Assembly: GCF_004104075.1 (NCBI RefSeq) | Contig: NZ_QOVK01000010.1 | Span: 62,001-126,000 of the forward strand | DNA length: 64,000 nucleotides | DNA from: Leeuwenhoekiella polynyae | GTDB taxonomy: Bacteria > Bacteroidota > Bacteroidia > Flavobacteriales > Flavobacteriaceae | Direction of reading: 5' to 3' | Part shown: in pieces, positions 26,973 through 31,907 of the stretch | Layout: each line of letters begins with the position of its first letter | How positions within the stretch are numbered: position 1 is the stretch's first letter | Notes under the pieces: model-generated | Told to the model about the DNA's origin: nothing | What the model saw: only the letters and a program-made list of their open reading frames with translations | The model's database searches: none | Position numbers and translations under genes: made by a program

Positions 26973-27172
26973 AATTTTTAGTTTTAATTCATTAAAGCTA
27001 ATGAATAATTAGCAAAAAATAAGCCGAAAACATCAGCTGACGTATTGGCTGTCACTTCGAGTTTTTGATGGAGGTCATTACCGGAATTAAAAGTTTCGAG
27101 AGGGATCGCTTTGATACACCGCTCCTTTGGTCCCGTTACTCAGCGACCGGTTTACTCCAAGTTTTAGTCAGT

Positions 27173-27228
27173 TCGAGCGCAGTCGAGAACCAAACTACAT
27201 TTAAAGCTAGCATCTCGACTGCGCTCGA
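27173..27228. repeat. 16-bp inverted repeat (TCGAGCGCAGTCGAGA)
   Basis: Perfect arms at 27173-27188 and 27213-27228 separated by 24 bases, followed by TGTGACACTGAG. The motif resembles the 'ctcgactgcgctcga' repeats that are scattered through many Bacteroidota genomes. Confidence 0.8.
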
Positions 27229-27295
27229 TGTGACACTGAGAATTCCAGAAATATTATACCTTGTATTTCTAATTTTGTATTTCCGATTTTCAATT

Positions 27296-27317
27296 CCCCC
27301 TTTGGGGGTTTAGGGGG
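27296..27317. repeat. Solo right-end copy of the CCCCC/GGGGG element at the leuS stop codon
   Basis: CCCCCTTTGGGGG followed by TTTAGGGGG, closely matching the right inverted repeat of the DUF559 element (29893-29916). The leuS stop codon TAG occupies the three bases right after it (27318-27320). Confidence 0.8.
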
Positions 27318-30300
27318 CTAGCCTACAAAATTCACGATCTTTCCGGGAACCACGATGACTTTTTTAGGTTCGCGACCGCCTAAATATTCCTGAGTTTTCT
27401 CGTATGCACGTACCGCTTTTTCGATTTCTTCTTTAGAAAGATCTAGCGGAAGCTCCATTGTAAAACGCATTTTCCCGTTAAACGAAATCGGGTATTCTTT
27501 ACTGCTTTCTACCAAATGCTTGGCGTCAAACTCCGGAAACGGTGCCGTTGCAATCGAACCTTCGTGACCCAATAAACTCCATAATTCTTCTGCGATGTGT
27601 GGAGCATACGGCGAAATCAAAACCACCAAAGGTTCCAGCACTTCACGGTTGTTACATTTTGCAGCAGCCAACTCGTTAACGGCAATCATGAAGGTAGAAA
27701 CCGAAGTATTGAAACTGAAGTTCTCGATATCTTCCTGCACCTTTTTGATGGTTTTATGAAGAACTTTAAGCCCCTCGGTCCCCGAAGGGGAAGCATCAAC
27801 GTAGAACTCACCAACATTTCCATTAGGATCAACTTTGTGATACAACTTCCAGAGTTTTTTGAGGAAGTTATGTACTCCGGTTATTCCTGCAGTATTCCAG
27901 GGTTTTGCCTGCTCTAACGGACCTAAAAACATCTCGTACATACGCAAGGTATCGGCGCCGTACTCCTCACAAATATCATCGGGGTTTACCACGTTGTATT
28001 TGGATTTGGACATTTTTTCTACTTCGCGTGAAACTTTTACTCTATAATCTTTTGCACCTGAATCAGGAAAAATAATTCTCAATGACTCATCAATAAAAAT
28101 TGAATTTACAAGCTCCTTTCTCCAATTCCGAAACTCAGGAACATCTAATAAATTTGATGTATTTACAAAGGAAACATCAACAACAAATTTTCTTCCTCTA
28201 TCCAAGACCTTTACATTAAGATTTTTATGACCTAAATCTTTTTCAATTTCATTAGAATACCATTTTTCTATTTCAGAAAGCTTTTCTTTAAAATGATCAT
28301 TAAAATTGCTTTCCTGATATGCAGGAAGGAAATCACTCGAGAAAAATAAAGGCCTTAAAGAAATATAGTCCGACACATCTATTGCTTCATCCATAGTCAA
28401 TTCAGATTCATCATACTCAACATAAACTGAATGTGCAAAAGCACTCTCCCCCAAAATCATCCCCTGATTGATGAGCTTTTTAAACGGCTCTTCAACTGGG
28501 GCGAAGCCACGGTCTTTTAAAAATTTCACCCAGAAACGGCTGTATAGTAAATGACCAGTAGCGTGTTCGCTACCTCCAATGTAGAGGTCTACATTTTGCC
28601 AGTACTCCATCGCTTCTTTTGATGCAAAAGCCTCGTCGCGCAAGGCTTTCTCCATATACCTAAAGAAATACCAGCTGCTTCCTGCCCAACCGGGCATGGT
28701 GTTCAGCTCCAGCCCATAAACACCCGAAGGGGTATTCTCAGCATCAGCTCCCCCTTTGGGGGTTGGGGGGCCTACTACTTCGTTGGTATTCGTATCCCAA
28801 TGCCACTTCGTGGCGCGACCTAGTGGCGGTTCACCTTCTTCGGTGGGTAAGTATTTTTCTACTTCCGGGAGCTCTAAAGGCAGGTATTTCGCATCAATCA
28901 TTTGCGGCATACCGTCCACGTAATAAACCGGGAAGGGTTCTCCCCAATAGCGCTGACGGCTAAAGACTGCATCTCGCAGGCGGTAATTGACTTTTCCTTT
29001 ACCGGCGCCTATTTTCTCCAATTCTTCAATCGCTTTAGGAAGCGCCTGCTTGTATGAAAGTCCGTTTAAGAAATCAGAATCTTTCAACGGTGTATTGTCC
29101 TTTTCGGCGTAAGCCTGCTCGCTGATATCAATTCCGTCAAAAATATTTTTAATCGGAATACCAAAATGTGTCGCAAAATCCCAGTCGCGCTGATCCCCGC
29201 AAGGTACGGCCATCACCGCACCGGTACCGTAACCGGCCAGTACATAATCCCCTATCCAGATCGGGATGGGCTCTTTAGTAAATGGGTGCTCTGCATAAGC
29301 CCCAGTAAATGCCCCCGAAATAGTCTTTACATCAGCCATACGCTCGCGCTCGCTACGCTTGGCAGTCGCCTCAATGTAGGCGTCAACCTCAGCCTTTTGC
29401 TCAGGTGTGGTAATCTCCTGTACCAGGTCCAACTCGGGTGCCAGCGTCATAAACGTTACCCCAAAAATAGTGTCGGGACGGGTGGTGAAGACTTCAATCC
29501 CCCTAACCCCCGAAGGGGGAACAAACGCATCTAAACTTGCTGTGATCTGATCGATCACCTTTTGCAAATCATGAAGAACTTCTTCATTTTTAAACCGAAT
29601 AACTTGATATCCTATATCTTCTAATACTTCTGTTCTTGCCTGATCTTTTCCCTGTTGATTATCGTGAACAGATCCGTCTACTTCAATTATAAGTTTCTTC
29701 GAAAGACATACAAAATCAACAATATACTCATCAATAACGTGCTGCCTTCTGAATTTTGAATCCAGTTTTTTTCCACTCAAAACTTCCCAAAGCAGCTGTT
29801 CTGCTTCAGTAGGCTGAGATCGCATTTTTTTTGCTTTTTCATTCAGCAACGCTGAATTATTTCCCCCTGTCCTATATCCCGGCTTACTTGTAGTTCCCCC
29901 TTTGGGGGCTAGGGGGAATTTGACCATCGCCCCTTTACTTCTACCAATCCAGTTGGTTTGTGAATCTTTAAGCGGTTGTGGCCAGTCGATATCTTGTAAA
30001 CCGTCTAATAAACGCTGTGCGTATGCGCTGATGCGCATACTCCATTGGGTCATTTTTTTACGCACTACGGGATGCCCACCACGTTCTGAAACGCCGTTAA
30101 CAATCTCATCGTTTGCTAATACGGTACCCAAAGCCGGACACCAGTTTACTTCGGTTTCAGCCAGGTAGGTTAAGCGGTATTTTAAAAGTATTTCCTGTTT
30201 TGCTTTCGCGGAAGCGTTTTTCCAATCTTCAGCAGTAAAAGATTCCACATCTTCATCGCACACCGCATTTACAGAAGTATTTCCTTCAGCTTCAAATTTG

Positions 30301-30785
30301 GCGATCAGCGTGTCAATATGTTCCGCTTTGTTGCTGTCGTTGTTGTACCAACTTTCAAAAAGCTGAATAAAAATCCACTGTGTCCACTTATAATATTCGG
30401 GATTTGACGTGCGCACCTCGCGACTCCAGTCAAATGAAAAACCGATTTTATCCAATTGCTCGCGGTAACGGGCAATATTGGTTTCGGTAGTGATTGCCGG
30501 GTGTTGACCGGTTTGAATCGCATATTGCTCTGCCGGAAGTCCAAATGAATCATACCCCTGTGGATGCAACACATTATACCCTTGATGCCGTTTGTAACGC
30601 GCATAAATGTCACTGGCGATATACCCTAGCGGATGACCCACGTGCAGTCCCGCCCCAGAAGGATAGGGAAACATATCAAGCACATAATATTTAGGCTTAT
30701 CGCTGTTGTTTTGGGCTTCAAAGGTTTTGTGTTCTTTCCAAAACTGTTGCCACTTTTCTTCTATCGCGTTAAAATCGTAATTCAT
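27318..30785 (-). CDS. leuS: Leucyl-tRNA synthetase carrying an in-frame DUF559 nuclease insertion
   Basis: Class I synthetase charging tRNA-Leu. HIGH is HVGH (48-51), KMSKS is 924-928, and the CP1 editing domain shows TTRPDTIFG (from residue 434). At 1155 aa it is over 200 residues longer than the usual ~920-950. The excess is explained by: residues 291-429, a DUF559 endonuclease domain inside inverted repeats, between VKF and the IEVFTTRPDT editing strand; residues 672-691, a short ORF-less copy of the same element; about 998-1006, a solo end; and an expanded AT-rich segment (about 785-915) before KMSKS. The frame is unbroken. Whether the inserted protein parts are tolerated as such or removed cannot be told from sequence. 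Confidence 0.93.
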   Translation of the reverse strand: MNYDFNAIEEKWQQFWKEHKTFEAQNNSDKPKYYVLDMFPYPSGAGLHVGHPLGYIASDIYARYKRHQGYNVLHPQGYDSFGLPAEQYAIQTGQHPAITTETNIARYREQLDKIGFSFDWSREVRTSNPEYYKWTQWIFIQLFESWYNNDSNKAEHIDTLIAKFEAEGNTSVNAVCDEDVESFTAEDWKNASAKAKQEILLKYRLTYLAETEVNWCPALGTVLANDEIVNGVSERGGHPVVRKKMTQWSMRISAYAQRLLDGLQDIDWPQPLKDSQTNWIGRSKGAMVKFPLAPKGGTTSKPGYRTGGNNSALLNEKAKKMRSQPTEAEQLLWEVLSGKKLDSKFRRQHVIDEYIVDFVCLSKKLIIEVDGSVHDNQQGKDQARTEVLEDIGYQVIRFKNEEVLHDLQKVIDQITASLDAFVPPSGVRGIEVFTTRPDTIFGVTFMTLAPELDLVQEITTPEQKAEVDAYIEATAKRSERERMADVKTISGAFTGAYAEHPFTKEPIPIWIGDYVLAGYGTGAVMAVPCGDQRDWDFATHFGIPIKNIFDGIDISEQAYAEKDNTPLKDSDFLNGLSYKQALPKAIEELEKIGAGKGKVNYRLRDAVFSRQRYWGEPFPVYYVDGMPQMIDAKYLPLELPEVEKYLPTEEGEPPLGRATKWHWDTNTNEVVGPPTPKGGADAENTPSGVYGLELNTMPGWAGSSWYFFRYMEKALRDEAFASKEAMEYWQNVDLYIGGSEHATGHLLYSRFWVKFLKDRGFAPVEEPFKKLINQGMILGESAFAHSVYVEYDESELTMDEAIDVSDYISLRPLFFSSDFLPAYQESNFNDHFKEKLSEIEKWYSNEIEKDLGHKNLNVKVLDRGRKFVVDVSFVNTSNLLDVPEFRNWRKELVNSIFIDESLRIIFPDSGAKDYRVKVSREVEKMSKSKYNVVNPDDICEEYGADTLRMYEMFLGPLEQAKPWNTAGITGVHNFLKKLWKLYHKVDPNGNVGEFYVDASPSGTEGLKVLHKTIKKVQEDIENFSFNTSVSTFMIAVNELAAAKCNNREVLEPLVVLISPYAPHIAEELWSLLGHEGSIATAPFPEFDAKHLVESSKEYPISFNGKMRFTMELPLDLSKEEIEKAVRAYEKTQEYLGGREPKKVIVVPGKIVNFVG
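27770..27794. repeat. Solo left-end copy of the CCCCC/GGGGG element inside leuS
   Basis: GCCCCTCGGTCCCCGAAGGG and the following GAAGC resemble the left inverted repeat of the DUF559 element. It is read in leuS as residues about 998-1006 (ASPSGTEGL), after the KMSKS domain. Confidence 0.7.
28713..28770. repeat. Short ORF-less copy of the DUF559-associated element inside leuS
   Basis: A left-type end (28713-28732, containing CACCCGAAGGGG) and a right-type end (28748-28770, CCCCCTTTGGGGG then TTGGGGGG) are separated by 15 bases. It is read in frame as leuS residues 672-691 (GPPTPKGG...TPSGVYG). It looks like a miniature, non-coding derivative of the larger element. Confidence 0.75.
29499..29916 (-). 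mobile_element. DUF559 element with 24-bp terminal inverted repeats inserted in leuS
   Basis: The left end (29499-29522, CCCCCTAACCCCCGAAGGGG then GAAC) and right end (29893-29916, the complement of CCCCCTAGCCCCCAAAGGGG then GAAC) match at 22 of 24 positions. AAT lies outside both ends and may be a 3-bp target duplication. The interior encodes a DUF559/Vsr-like nuclease domain: M321 as a possible internal start, TEAEQLLW, FRRQH, then D357 (IVDFVC), E368 and D370 (IIEVDG) as PD-(D/E)XK-type residues, and VIRFKNEEV. A 7-bp hairpin (ATTCAGC/GCTGAAT) lies just upstream of M321. The element is open in the leuS frame throughout. Confidence 0.85.
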
Positions 30786-30826
30786 CCTAGGTTCATTTGT
30801 TGAAATTGCTTTAAGACTTGTAAACT

Positions 30827-30894
30827 GTCAAACTGAGCTTGTCGAAGTTTCAACCCATTAGTCATTAATTGGTCTTCGACAGGCTCAGACTGAC
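30827..30894. repeat. 21-bp inverted repeat (GCTTGTCGAAG type) upstream of leuS
   Basis: Arms at 30827-30847 (GTCAAACTGAGCTTGTCGAA then G) and 30874-30894 match at about 18 of 21 positions. It is the 'actgagcttgtcgaag' palindrome found in many Bacteroidota intergenic regions. It lies between panE and leuS, 42 bases before the leuS start. Confidence 0.8.
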
Positions 30895-30983
30895 AAACGA
30901 AATCTAAAGCATATCTTTTAGAAGCGGCAAATTTAACGATTTAAAAGCGATTTGAGACTTCAGATTCCTTCATCAAAATTTAG

Positions 30984-31907
30984 TTAAGACCGCGCCTCTT
31001 TTTCCATAGGTAATAAGCACTCGTAAATGAGTTCGTTTACCGGGACTGAAACCCCTAACCGTTTCCCTTCCCGAACAATATACCCATTAAAATTATCGAG
31101 TTCGCTGGGTTTGCCTTCCATAATATCCCGTTGGGTGGAAGCAGTAACCTCAGCATCTTGATTTTGAATCACTTCAAAAACCGAATCCATATGGGCTTCT
31201 GTTAGATTTATTCCTTTGGCTTTTGCAACTTTAAAAATCTCTTGGGCAGTATCTTTCATCATCTGGAACAGGTATTCGCTGGAACGTATTTTACCCATAG
31301 GCACGCGGGTTAATCCGCCAATACCGCTTATCGTACAGATGAATAAAAATTTCTTCCAGATCTCAACCTGAATGTTTTCTACTGAATCACTCACAAAACC
31401 AGCTTCCTGAAACAATTCCTGAAGGGCTTTTATGCGGTCAGTAAGACTGCCGTTGAGTTCTCCAAATATTATAATTGGCTCAAACGTAAGATGTTTTATT
31501 TTACCGGGACCGTCTTTAAAAGCTATAATTCTGCACAATCCTCCTAAAACCTGAGCATCGGGCAACACCTCGAGAATTTTCTCTGCATTTGCAGCACCAT
31601 TTTGCAAGGGTAAAAACACGGTTTCAGATTTTACATACGGCTTTAAAGCTTGAATACTCTCAGGAACTTGCCAGGATTTAACACCTAGAATCACTAAATC
31701 CGGAGTAGGTATTTCGCTGAGATCATCAGTTGCCAGATCGGGTTCCGCTACAAAATCGCCTTTGTAACTGGTTACCTGCAATCCATTTTGTTTAATCGCT
31801 TCCAGATGCTTTCCGCGAGCGATAAACGTTATATGATTATTGGTTTTAGTCAGTTTTCCGCCAAAATAGCCGCCAACTCCTCCTATTCCGTATATTAAAA
31901 TGTTCAT
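30984..31907 (-). CDS. panE: 2-dehydropantoate 2-reductase (ketopantoate reductase)
   Basis: A 307-aa NADPH-dependent enzyme reducing ketopantoate to pantoate in pantothenate and CoA synthesis. The Rossmann motif ILIYGIGGVGGYFGGKL is at the N-terminus, LGVKSWQV and LPLQNGAANAEKI follow, and the catalytic Lys lies in EIWKKFLFICTISGI (about 188-202). The C-terminal helical domain with KPSELDNFNGYIVREGKRLG is complete. Divergent from ftsX. Some homologues act on other 2-keto acids, so substrate is by family only. Confidence 0.87.
   Translation of the reverse strand: MNILIYGIGGVGGYFGGKLTKTNNHITFIARGKHLEAIKQNGLQVTSYKGDFVAEPDLATDDLSEIPTPDLVILGVKSWQVPESIQALKPYVKSETVFLPLQNGAANAEKILEVLPDAQVLGGLCRIIAFKDGPGKIKHLTFEPIIIFGELNGSLTDRIKALQELFQEAGFVSDSVENIQVEIWKKFLFICTISGIGGLTRVPMGKIRSSEYLFQMMKDTAQEIFKVAKAKGINLTEAHMDSVFEVIQNQDAEVTASTQRDIMEGKPSELDNFNGYIVREGKRLGVSVPVNELIYECLLPMEKEARS

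Follow-up and report, generated by a model that had tools for sequence, protein, structure and literature searches.

A probable homing-type nuclease element, bounded by palindromes and kept in frame, in the essential leuS gene of Leeuwenhoekiella polynyae

How does an essential gene come to carry a nuclease in the middle of its reading frame, and what keeps it there? The question is raised by leuS, the gene for leucyl-tRNA synthetase (LeuRS), in a stretch of 64,000 nucleotides from Leeuwenhoekiella polynyae (contig NZ_QOVK01000010.1, positions 62,001 to 126,000; hereafter the window). Here a short insert with palindromic ends encodes a DUF559 nuclease domain and leaves the frame of leuS open. 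Based on the comparisons outlined below, we think it likely that this insert is a homing-type selfish element of essential genes, one that does not splice, sits in a loop and keeps the frame of its host. The window's own genome (G000) comprises 4.79 Mb in 47 contigs; other genomes and loci are given by our G and L numbers where they must be told apart. The parts of the locus, in window positions, are these:

27318..30785, minus strand: leuS (leucyl-tRNA synthetase), the host gene, a single open frame of 1155 amino acids (aa)
29499..29916, minus strand: the element, at site A of leuS, 418 bp with palindromic inverted-repeat ends and the leuS frame kept
29532..29843, minus strand: DUF559 (PF04480), a Vsr-like nuclease domain, leuS residues 315-418
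29499..29519, minus strand: triple-block palindrome at the element's downstream end (leuS sense), CCCCCTTCGGGGGTTAGGGGG, from the inverted-repeat and palindrome finder
29896..29916, plus strand: triple-block palindrome at the element's upstream end (leuS sense), CCCCCTTTGGGGGCTAGGGGG as read on the plus strand, from the same finder

A first-pass annotation had described an in-frame DUF559 element with terminal inverted repeats in leuS, flanked by AAT and placed just ahead of the editing-domain strand VFTTRPDT, and this description stands. The inverted-repeat arms (29498-29522 and 29893-29917) are 25 nt long and 92% complementary, with no other inverted pair reported in 28900-30500 (seed 9, arms of at least 12 nt), and each end consists of a small hairpin and a further block, in the order C5-loop-G5-spacer-G5. 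In the leuS product, Pfam places DUF559 (E 2.9e-36, profile positions 4-108 of 109) behind the first catalytic part and ahead of the editing domain. AAT is found at both outer borders, and the insert corresponds to about residues 293-429, directly before VFTTRPDT, a stretch that is missing from relatives with an empty site. Immediately upstream of leuS there is a separate inverted repeat (about 30825-30895).

Could this be an element of a familiar kind? An intein is ruled out by a Pfam scan of the whole leuS product, which contains no Hint/intein domain, and a group I or group II intron by an Rfam scan of 27000-31000, which returned no intron at E<=1 and only a sub-threshold small RNA model on the leuS 5' side. 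A usual insertion sequence is argued against by the lack of a transposase domain in the element's frame, and Pfam finds only DUF559 and LeuRS domains in the leuS frame; nor does the scan find, between the palindromes of the leuS element, an HUH (Y1) transposase as in REP/RAYT systems. The earlier verdict that the insert is neither an intein nor a usual insertion sequence is thereby upheld. An assembly artefact is also ruled out, given that the insert recurs in many genomes. It appears, then, that the insert remains in the finished essential enzyme and that nothing is removed. A structure model of the whole LeuRS was poor (mean pLDDT 53, pTM 0.30, 17 sequences) and was not used.

Do close relatives carry the same insert? 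A check for empty sites had been suggested along with the first-pass annotation, and such sites are found: within the window's genus (g1), site A is empty in five of 13 genomes and filled in the other eight.

Filled at leuS site A (genus g1): G000, G001, G002, G005, G006, G007, G009, G012
Empty at leuS site A (genus g1): G003, G004, G008, G010, G011

A search of 60 relatives with the leuS product gave alignments that run through residues 293-429 for most filled alleles and break there for empty ones; the alignment to G012 leuS also breaks, yet a more distant DUF559 insert is present. Outside the genus, the same search found the site filled in two other genera (G014, where the copy has decayed, and G035). 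A Leeuwenhoekiella marinoflava locus (L204), whose LeuRS matches that of the window at 92% over 340 residues, has its own site-A insert. At this place, the sequence alignment shows a variable linker in the empty alleles of the genus, 14 to 18 residues long. The insert-bearing leuS is the only one found in G000, and a query with an empty-type LeuRS revealed no second leuS in any of eight filled genomes (G000, G001, G002, G005, G006, G007, G009 and G035; G012 was outside the set searched). Because no second leuS was found in these eight, a LeuRS with the insert must function, or else be cut after translation. Further along the protein, at about residues 783-866 (window about 28439-28188), a second and unrelated hypervariable stretch precedes VDVSFV and differs greatly in length and sequence among species of the genus.

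Is the insert simply inherited with leuS, or does it arrive on its own? On a LeuRS host tree of 39 rows from which the insert columns had been removed (19 filled alleles, which are over-sampled, and 20 empty ones), filled and empty states require 13 changes, of which well-supported branches force 10 or more, and their clustering is no greater than with shuffled labels. Genus g1 forms a single clade in that tree (support 98/99). A single clade of its seven distinct nucleases was rejected (p-AU 0.024) in a comparison that was chosen after the first tree had been seen and that rests on 93 columns; the G000 and G002 nucleases have their closest neighbors among the leuS inserts of other genera, and the G007 nuclease stands apart from both groups. 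The host tree and the insert tree are in conflict. Left out of the trees were L058 (the same gene as L038), L002 (the same as L017), L024 and L167 (duplicate domains) and short or broken domains; neither the second nuclease tree nor the 85-row alignment used below includes the decayed L022 and L108.

Silent-site differences between genomes whose inserts are of one lineage address the same question. Between G001 and G009 they amount to 0.037 in the nuclease (2 of 54.7 sites) and 0.454 in the rest of leuS (p 2e-11), and between G000 and G002 to 0.182 (10 of 55 sites) and 0.438 (p 1e-4). For G005 the nuclease value is 0.352 (19 of 54 sites) against both G001 and G009, with 0.637 and 0.670, respectively, in the rest of leuS. 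Among 85-91 host windows of equal size, none was as low in any of these four pairs. In four of eight same-lineage pairs, then, silent sites have changed much less in the nuclease than in the surrounding leuS, and the nuclease therefore arrived after the split of the hosts. For these four pairs, in which the insert alone is younger, we reject the view that transfer of the entire gene, insert included, is the only cause. Inserts do enter one and the same site independently of leuS and, as the remaining pairs discussed below indicate, are inherited too.

What does the insert encode, and is it maintained as a nuclease? In 85 aligned domains, decayed copies excluded, E329, D357, E368 and D370 are invariant and H374 is nearly so; over these domains, which come from very diverse locations, the invariant columns read E, W, Q, D, F, E, D, D, R. 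The ratio of nonsynonymous to synonymous change (dN/dS) of the insert is about 0.1 in pairs of one lineage (range, 0.08-0.2), and, judged from its sequence, the nuclease is under purifying selection. A structure model built from the 85 sequences (pLDDT 86, pTM 0.81) was compared with known structures and gave Z 15.7 to ngo0050, a DUF559 protein (3hrl); Z 12.3, with a root mean square deviation of 2.5 over 94 residues, to the homing endonuclease I-Bth0305I (3r3p); and Z 9.9 to Vsr (1cw0). Foldseek matched the model to 3r3p with E 4.3e-5, and sequence profiles matched 3hrl at 2.5e-33 and 3r3p at 1.4e-6. As modeled, the DUF559 domain has its nearest solved structures in ngo0050 and I-Bth0305I and shows the catalytic fold of a known homing endonuclease.

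Is leuS alone in this? At the level of the family, 120 genomes contain 68 DUF559 places at E<=1e-10, of which 19 are in frames of at least 280 aa; at the level of the phylum, 163 of 395 genomes have a match at this threshold, and 51 of the best 150 places are in frames of at least 280 aa. We fetched 60 loci from the phylum listing, 52 of them picked for open frames of at least 200 aa, and found 80 named loci with a query built from in-gene nucleases, so that the share of named loci in frames of at least 280 aa (75/80) is biased toward in-gene copies. Going by the Pfam assignments in selected proteins, in-frame DUF559 domains occupy about 30 host genes across Bacteroidota. Interior insertions are seen in leuS (two sites), metH (several, with two DUF559 domains in one metH, L191), recG, hsdR, hsdM, ileS, valS, metG and recJ, in type IIG and type ISP enzymes, methylmalonyl-CoA mutase, and UvrD-type and Lhr-type helicases, and in a MazG protein, a GH31 enzyme, a DegT aminotransferase and a CoA transferase. 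Fusions at an end are seen with hisD, an ilvA-like gene, hemD, hemF, hisF, rnhA, gmk and ispF and with a GATase_5 (purL-type) protein, FGase and a SpoU methylase. Host gene names that go beyond the Pfam names are our assumption from motifs. Terminal fusions could in part be read-through from a neighbor; interior ones cannot. Patchy presence, recent transfer of the insert alone in four of eight pairs and these roughly 30 host genes support the earlier suggestion of a self-spreading element that enters coding sequence and is tolerated by keeping the frame.

The neighbors of the inserts are strongly conserved motifs (VFTTRPDT, TMPGWAGSSW, KGDVHDIGKN, TATPIPRTL and GSGKS), and the sites themselves are loops that vary among empty alleles. 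In recG, filled in one of 58 genomes, the empty alleles align on both sides of the insertion point and leave few bases or none between the two aligned parts; several of them abut at that point, and the loop varies among them. On the nuclease tree, inserts group by host gene (13 changes, vs 32.4 with shuffled labels), with few jumps between hosts, such as an M23 gene within the metH clade. One genome (G316) has three related copies, in a UvrD-type gene, in a GATase_5 (purL-type) gene and in a standalone frame. Matches were found in 6 of 50,697 phage records and 38 of 72,556 plasmid records, none at 60% identity or more in either collection, and no vector is obvious from these.

Several further loci may be recorded here. 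At L086 (G108:C2:233061-237764), two standalone DUF559 copies with identical domains lie 1.4 kb apart. At L001 (G000:C1:399123-399437), a DUF559 domain with another palindrome type is fused in frame ahead of hemD, and a DUF559-hemD fusion is present in four genomes of the family, G000 among them. In two Vibrio phages (L276:2192-2929 and L277:2171-2911), a frame that matches DUF559 distantly (32-33% identity) runs antisense inside a gene that bears an intein. Close DUF559 relatives occur on contigs whose labels name other phyla, namely, Nitrotoga, Paceibacterota, Marithrix and Anaerolineae (L222, L229, L237 and L246), through transfer or misbinning of contigs.

Might the hosts simply have recruited a nuclease that adds a function to LeuRS and to the other enzymes? 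The intact frame and the purifying selection could be read in this way, and some hosts, such as recG, recJ, hsdR and the UvrD-type gene, do encode DNA enzymes. On the other hand, close relatives manage without the domain, the hosts are otherwise unrelated (leuS, metH, hemD, hisF, ispF and gmk), it is variable linkers that are entered, and the metH of L191 has two copies. We regard a useful domain fusion as very improbable.

We favor homing, that is, copying into an empty allele, which fits the data better than free transposition does. Homing predicts the features that occur together here: a nuclease of homing-endonuclease fold kept by purifying selection, fixed sites that also exist as empty alleles, insert lineages that stay with one site and rarely jump, and some inserts that are younger than the host gene. 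We infer the cutting of DNA and the movement of the element from comparison of sequences. In the proposed mechanism, the element consists of one small nuclease domain of Vsr/EDxHD fold (DUF559) between two G/C-rich palindromic ends, and the host enzyme would be made with the nuclease as an extra domain in a variable loop. The nuclease, as part of LeuRS or as a shorter product, would cut an empty leuS allele that arrives by gene transfer; alternatively, an empty chromosomal allele would be cut when a filled allele enters. Repair by homologous recombination would then copy the element into the cut allele, a step supported by the insert-specific recent transfer at a fixed site in some pairs. On rare occasions a copy would be founded in another gene or between genes, perhaps helped by the palindromic ends. 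Loss of the nuclease would leave bare palindromes or decayed domains, both of which are seen. Residence in frame would protect the nuclease from decay, because a frameshift or stop in the element would break the essential gene too. We posit that the conserved stretch beside the insert gives the nuclease a DNA target that stays stable and that the loop can accommodate an extra domain.

What part do the palindromes play in all this? The window contains five triple-block palindromes (27296-27317, 27770-27791, 28750-28769, 29499-29519 and 29896-29916), all of them in leuS or touching its stop, so that leuS looks like a palindrome hot spot. Besides the two ends of the element, these give the following features:

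28720..28770, minus strand: nuclease-less in-frame palindrome at site B of leuS; a full DUF559 insert occupies site B in other Bacteroidota (L147, L151, L156, L255)
27770..27791, minus strand: further palindrome within leuS, in the C-terminal part, which reads ASPSGTEGL
27296..27317, plus strand: palindrome abutting the leuS stop codon, from the triple-block finder

The palindrome at 28750 is a bare in-frame insertion at site B, common to G000 and G004 and missing from several species of the genus. In place of the one at 27770, relatives have another sequence of the same length, and this palindrome is perhaps due to conversion or chance, not insertion. At site B, G007 and G012 have a different repeat in frame, read as QVQHDE...HSELDSESH.

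Palindromes are tied to DUF559 well beyond the window. In the first locus set, on which the finder was built, there were 1.70 per kb near DUF559 (the domain itself included) and 0.118 per kb far from it (starting at 600 bp). The second set gave 3.91 vs 0.209 and the third set, the named loci, 3.81 vs 0.191, with near meaning the two 250-bp flanks and far meaning more than 1000 bp. The enrichment is 14- to 20-fold over the three sets, in all of which the expected coincidence of end palindromes with DUF559 elsewhere is thus observed. Within 250 bp, at least one palindrome was found at 48/80 domains of the first set (28/80 on both sides), 52/60 of the second (29/60 on both sides) and 67/80 of the third (49/80 on both sides). 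In the 250-bp flanks of 140 DUF559 domains, where a few loci are counted twice, as in the first near/far set, the triple-block palindrome (C-arm, loop, G-arm, spacer, G-block) occurred 208 times, compared with a mean of 6.1 and a maximum of 13 in 20 dinucleotide shuffles. A looser pattern gave 487 matches in 44 DUF559 genomes (best match 2.3e-10 or better) and 37 in 76 others, 16 of which have weaker matches (p 7.6e-10); two genomes (G068 and G085) account for 239 of the 487, and one hairpin may match more than once. Read backwards, as a control, the pattern gave 19 and 25 matches, respectively.

Do the ends then behave like those of a transposon? RAYTs are REP-associated tyrosine transposases, and REP palindromes have been described as extragenic; as in those systems, short dispersed palindromes are found here in numbers that track an enzyme gene flanked by such palindromes, and, unlike in those systems, the enzyme is a Vsr-fold nuclease and is often within genes. 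In a RAYT/REP-like or transposon-like scheme, the nuclease would act on its own palindromic ends and move both the element and bare palindromes, and shared sites would be no more than permissive loops. The enrichment in three sets and the tracking of DUF559 presence by palindrome number are consistent with this scheme, as are the related copies in G316 and the two identical domains in G108 (L086). Also in its favor, palindrome distance is weakly correlated with nuclease sequence distance (rho 0.185, 0/2000 permutations; for standalone elements alone, 0.25, 2/2000), in both cases uncorrected for host relatedness, which counts against leaning on it. Both ends could be defined in 21 elements; AG stands to the left of the C/G blocks in 10 of these and CT to the right in 11. 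Direct repeats of 3-4 bases at the border, or at most 2 bases off, are somewhat commoner than by re-pairing: 7/21 vs 2.3 expected (as high in 4/2000) and, with one element per host label, 4/12 vs 0.97 expected (as high in 8/2000). However, these repeats have no constant length of the kind that a target duplication would have, and two of the distinct cases (CCGG and TTAA) are self-complementary and may merely extend the inverted repeat. Moreover, the element has no transposase domain, and inserts group by host gene far beyond the shuffled expectation, which points to site-bound spread. We consider transposition of this sort unlikely.

Alternatively, are the nucleases mere passengers? Palindromes could spread by slippage or by recombination between repeats, with DUF559 cassettes carried along and transfer of leuS moving them. 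Bare palindromes are indeed common, also in frame (the aspS-like L014, leuS site B and leuS site A of G042); in G000 they occur singly or in pairs about 100 bp apart, some of them in frame. Other repeat families are likewise present at leuS site B, and many intact nucleases have no palindrome that the finder detects. A passenger would hardly be expected to keep its active-site residues and a dN/dS of about 0.1 in very different hosts, and palindrome numbers track DUF559. In the decayed leuS copies of G014 and G148, an active-site Asp and His are lost and palindromes are lacking as well. The absence of palindromes alone is nonspecific; it may be what a cycle of gain, decay and loss would give, and intact copies without detectable palindromes exist too. 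In our judgment, the passenger account is less probable still than transposition. As a separate observation, bare palindromes lie in or at the edge of frames at three G000 loci (L014, L009 and L013), which we take, from sequence, to be aspS, hisB and msrB, respectively.

Homing, the reading we prefer, has to contend with several observations of its own. In the other four of the eight same-lineage pairs (G005-G006, G001-G006, G009-G006 and G005-G012), insert and host have diverged to the same degree at silent sites, and vertical descent of inserts is therefore also common. One clade for all leuS site-A nucleases was not rejected (p-AU 0.37), and for this reason we do not claim separate foundings at site A; the genus-level rejection carries the limits given with it above. 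No long coconversion tract was seen beside the insert. The nuclease domain, at about 100 aa, shows no clear sign of additional DNA-binding regions such as those of I-Bth0305I, and 32 of the 80 first-set domains, many of them intact, had no palindrome detected. All of these weigh against homing as drawn here, and they are included in our estimate that it is likely.

How does the element compare with what is known? Homing endonuclease genes fused into fungal mitochondrial rps3 offer a possible precedent for insertion into a coding gene. Like inteins, the DUF559 elements are nuclease-bearing in-frame inserts of conserved genes with a patchy distribution; unlike them, the leuS insert comes with no Hint domain, is shorter, and sits in a loop beside a conserved motif, not inside it.

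With the EDxHD or Vsr-like homing endonucleases, of which I-Bth0305I is an example, the element shares the catalytic fold, presence or absence at fixed sites and, in some pairs, an insert younger than the host gene. According to one account, I-Bth0305I is a group I intron homing endonuclease with a target of nearly 60 bp and extra DNA-binding regions, and self-splicing partners are said to be what frees homing endonucleases to occupy conserved genes (PMC3943268); here, in contrast, neither an intron nor an intein was found, and the insert keeps the frame. Rickettsia palindromic elements are described as palindromic DNA of about 150 bp that lies in frame in unrelated protein genes and is tolerated, with no nuclease mentioned in that description (PMC10969869). 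The presence of palindromic DNA in frame in protein genes is similar, and the difference is that a conserved nuclease lies between the palindromes here and that only some copies are bare. The DUF559 protein VsrA, on which an SOS response of methylase-less Caulobacter depends, belongs, like ngo0050 (3hrl), to the same Pfam family or fold; the passages on it report neither palindromes nor in-frame insertion (PMC12907096). We found no description of palindrome-flanked in-frame DUF559 elements in the open-access literature, a search by literal terms that is weak evidence of absence.

In total, the data suggest a little-noticed kind of selfish DNA across the phylum. Does it deserve a class of its own, namely, homing nucleases that have no self-splicing partner, live in frame in loops of essential proteins as a permanent extra domain, and have palindromic ends that seed bare palindromes throughout Bacteroidota? 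Here we see the chances as evenly balanced. If the proposed mechanism is true, DUF559, a family “of unknown function,” gains a job, and in-frame palindromic DNA gains a possible engine, whose spread the reading as a class of its own would explain. It would also mean that there is a route by which proteins acquire whole domains, and recognizing it would help to correct the annotation of many genes of Bacteroidota.

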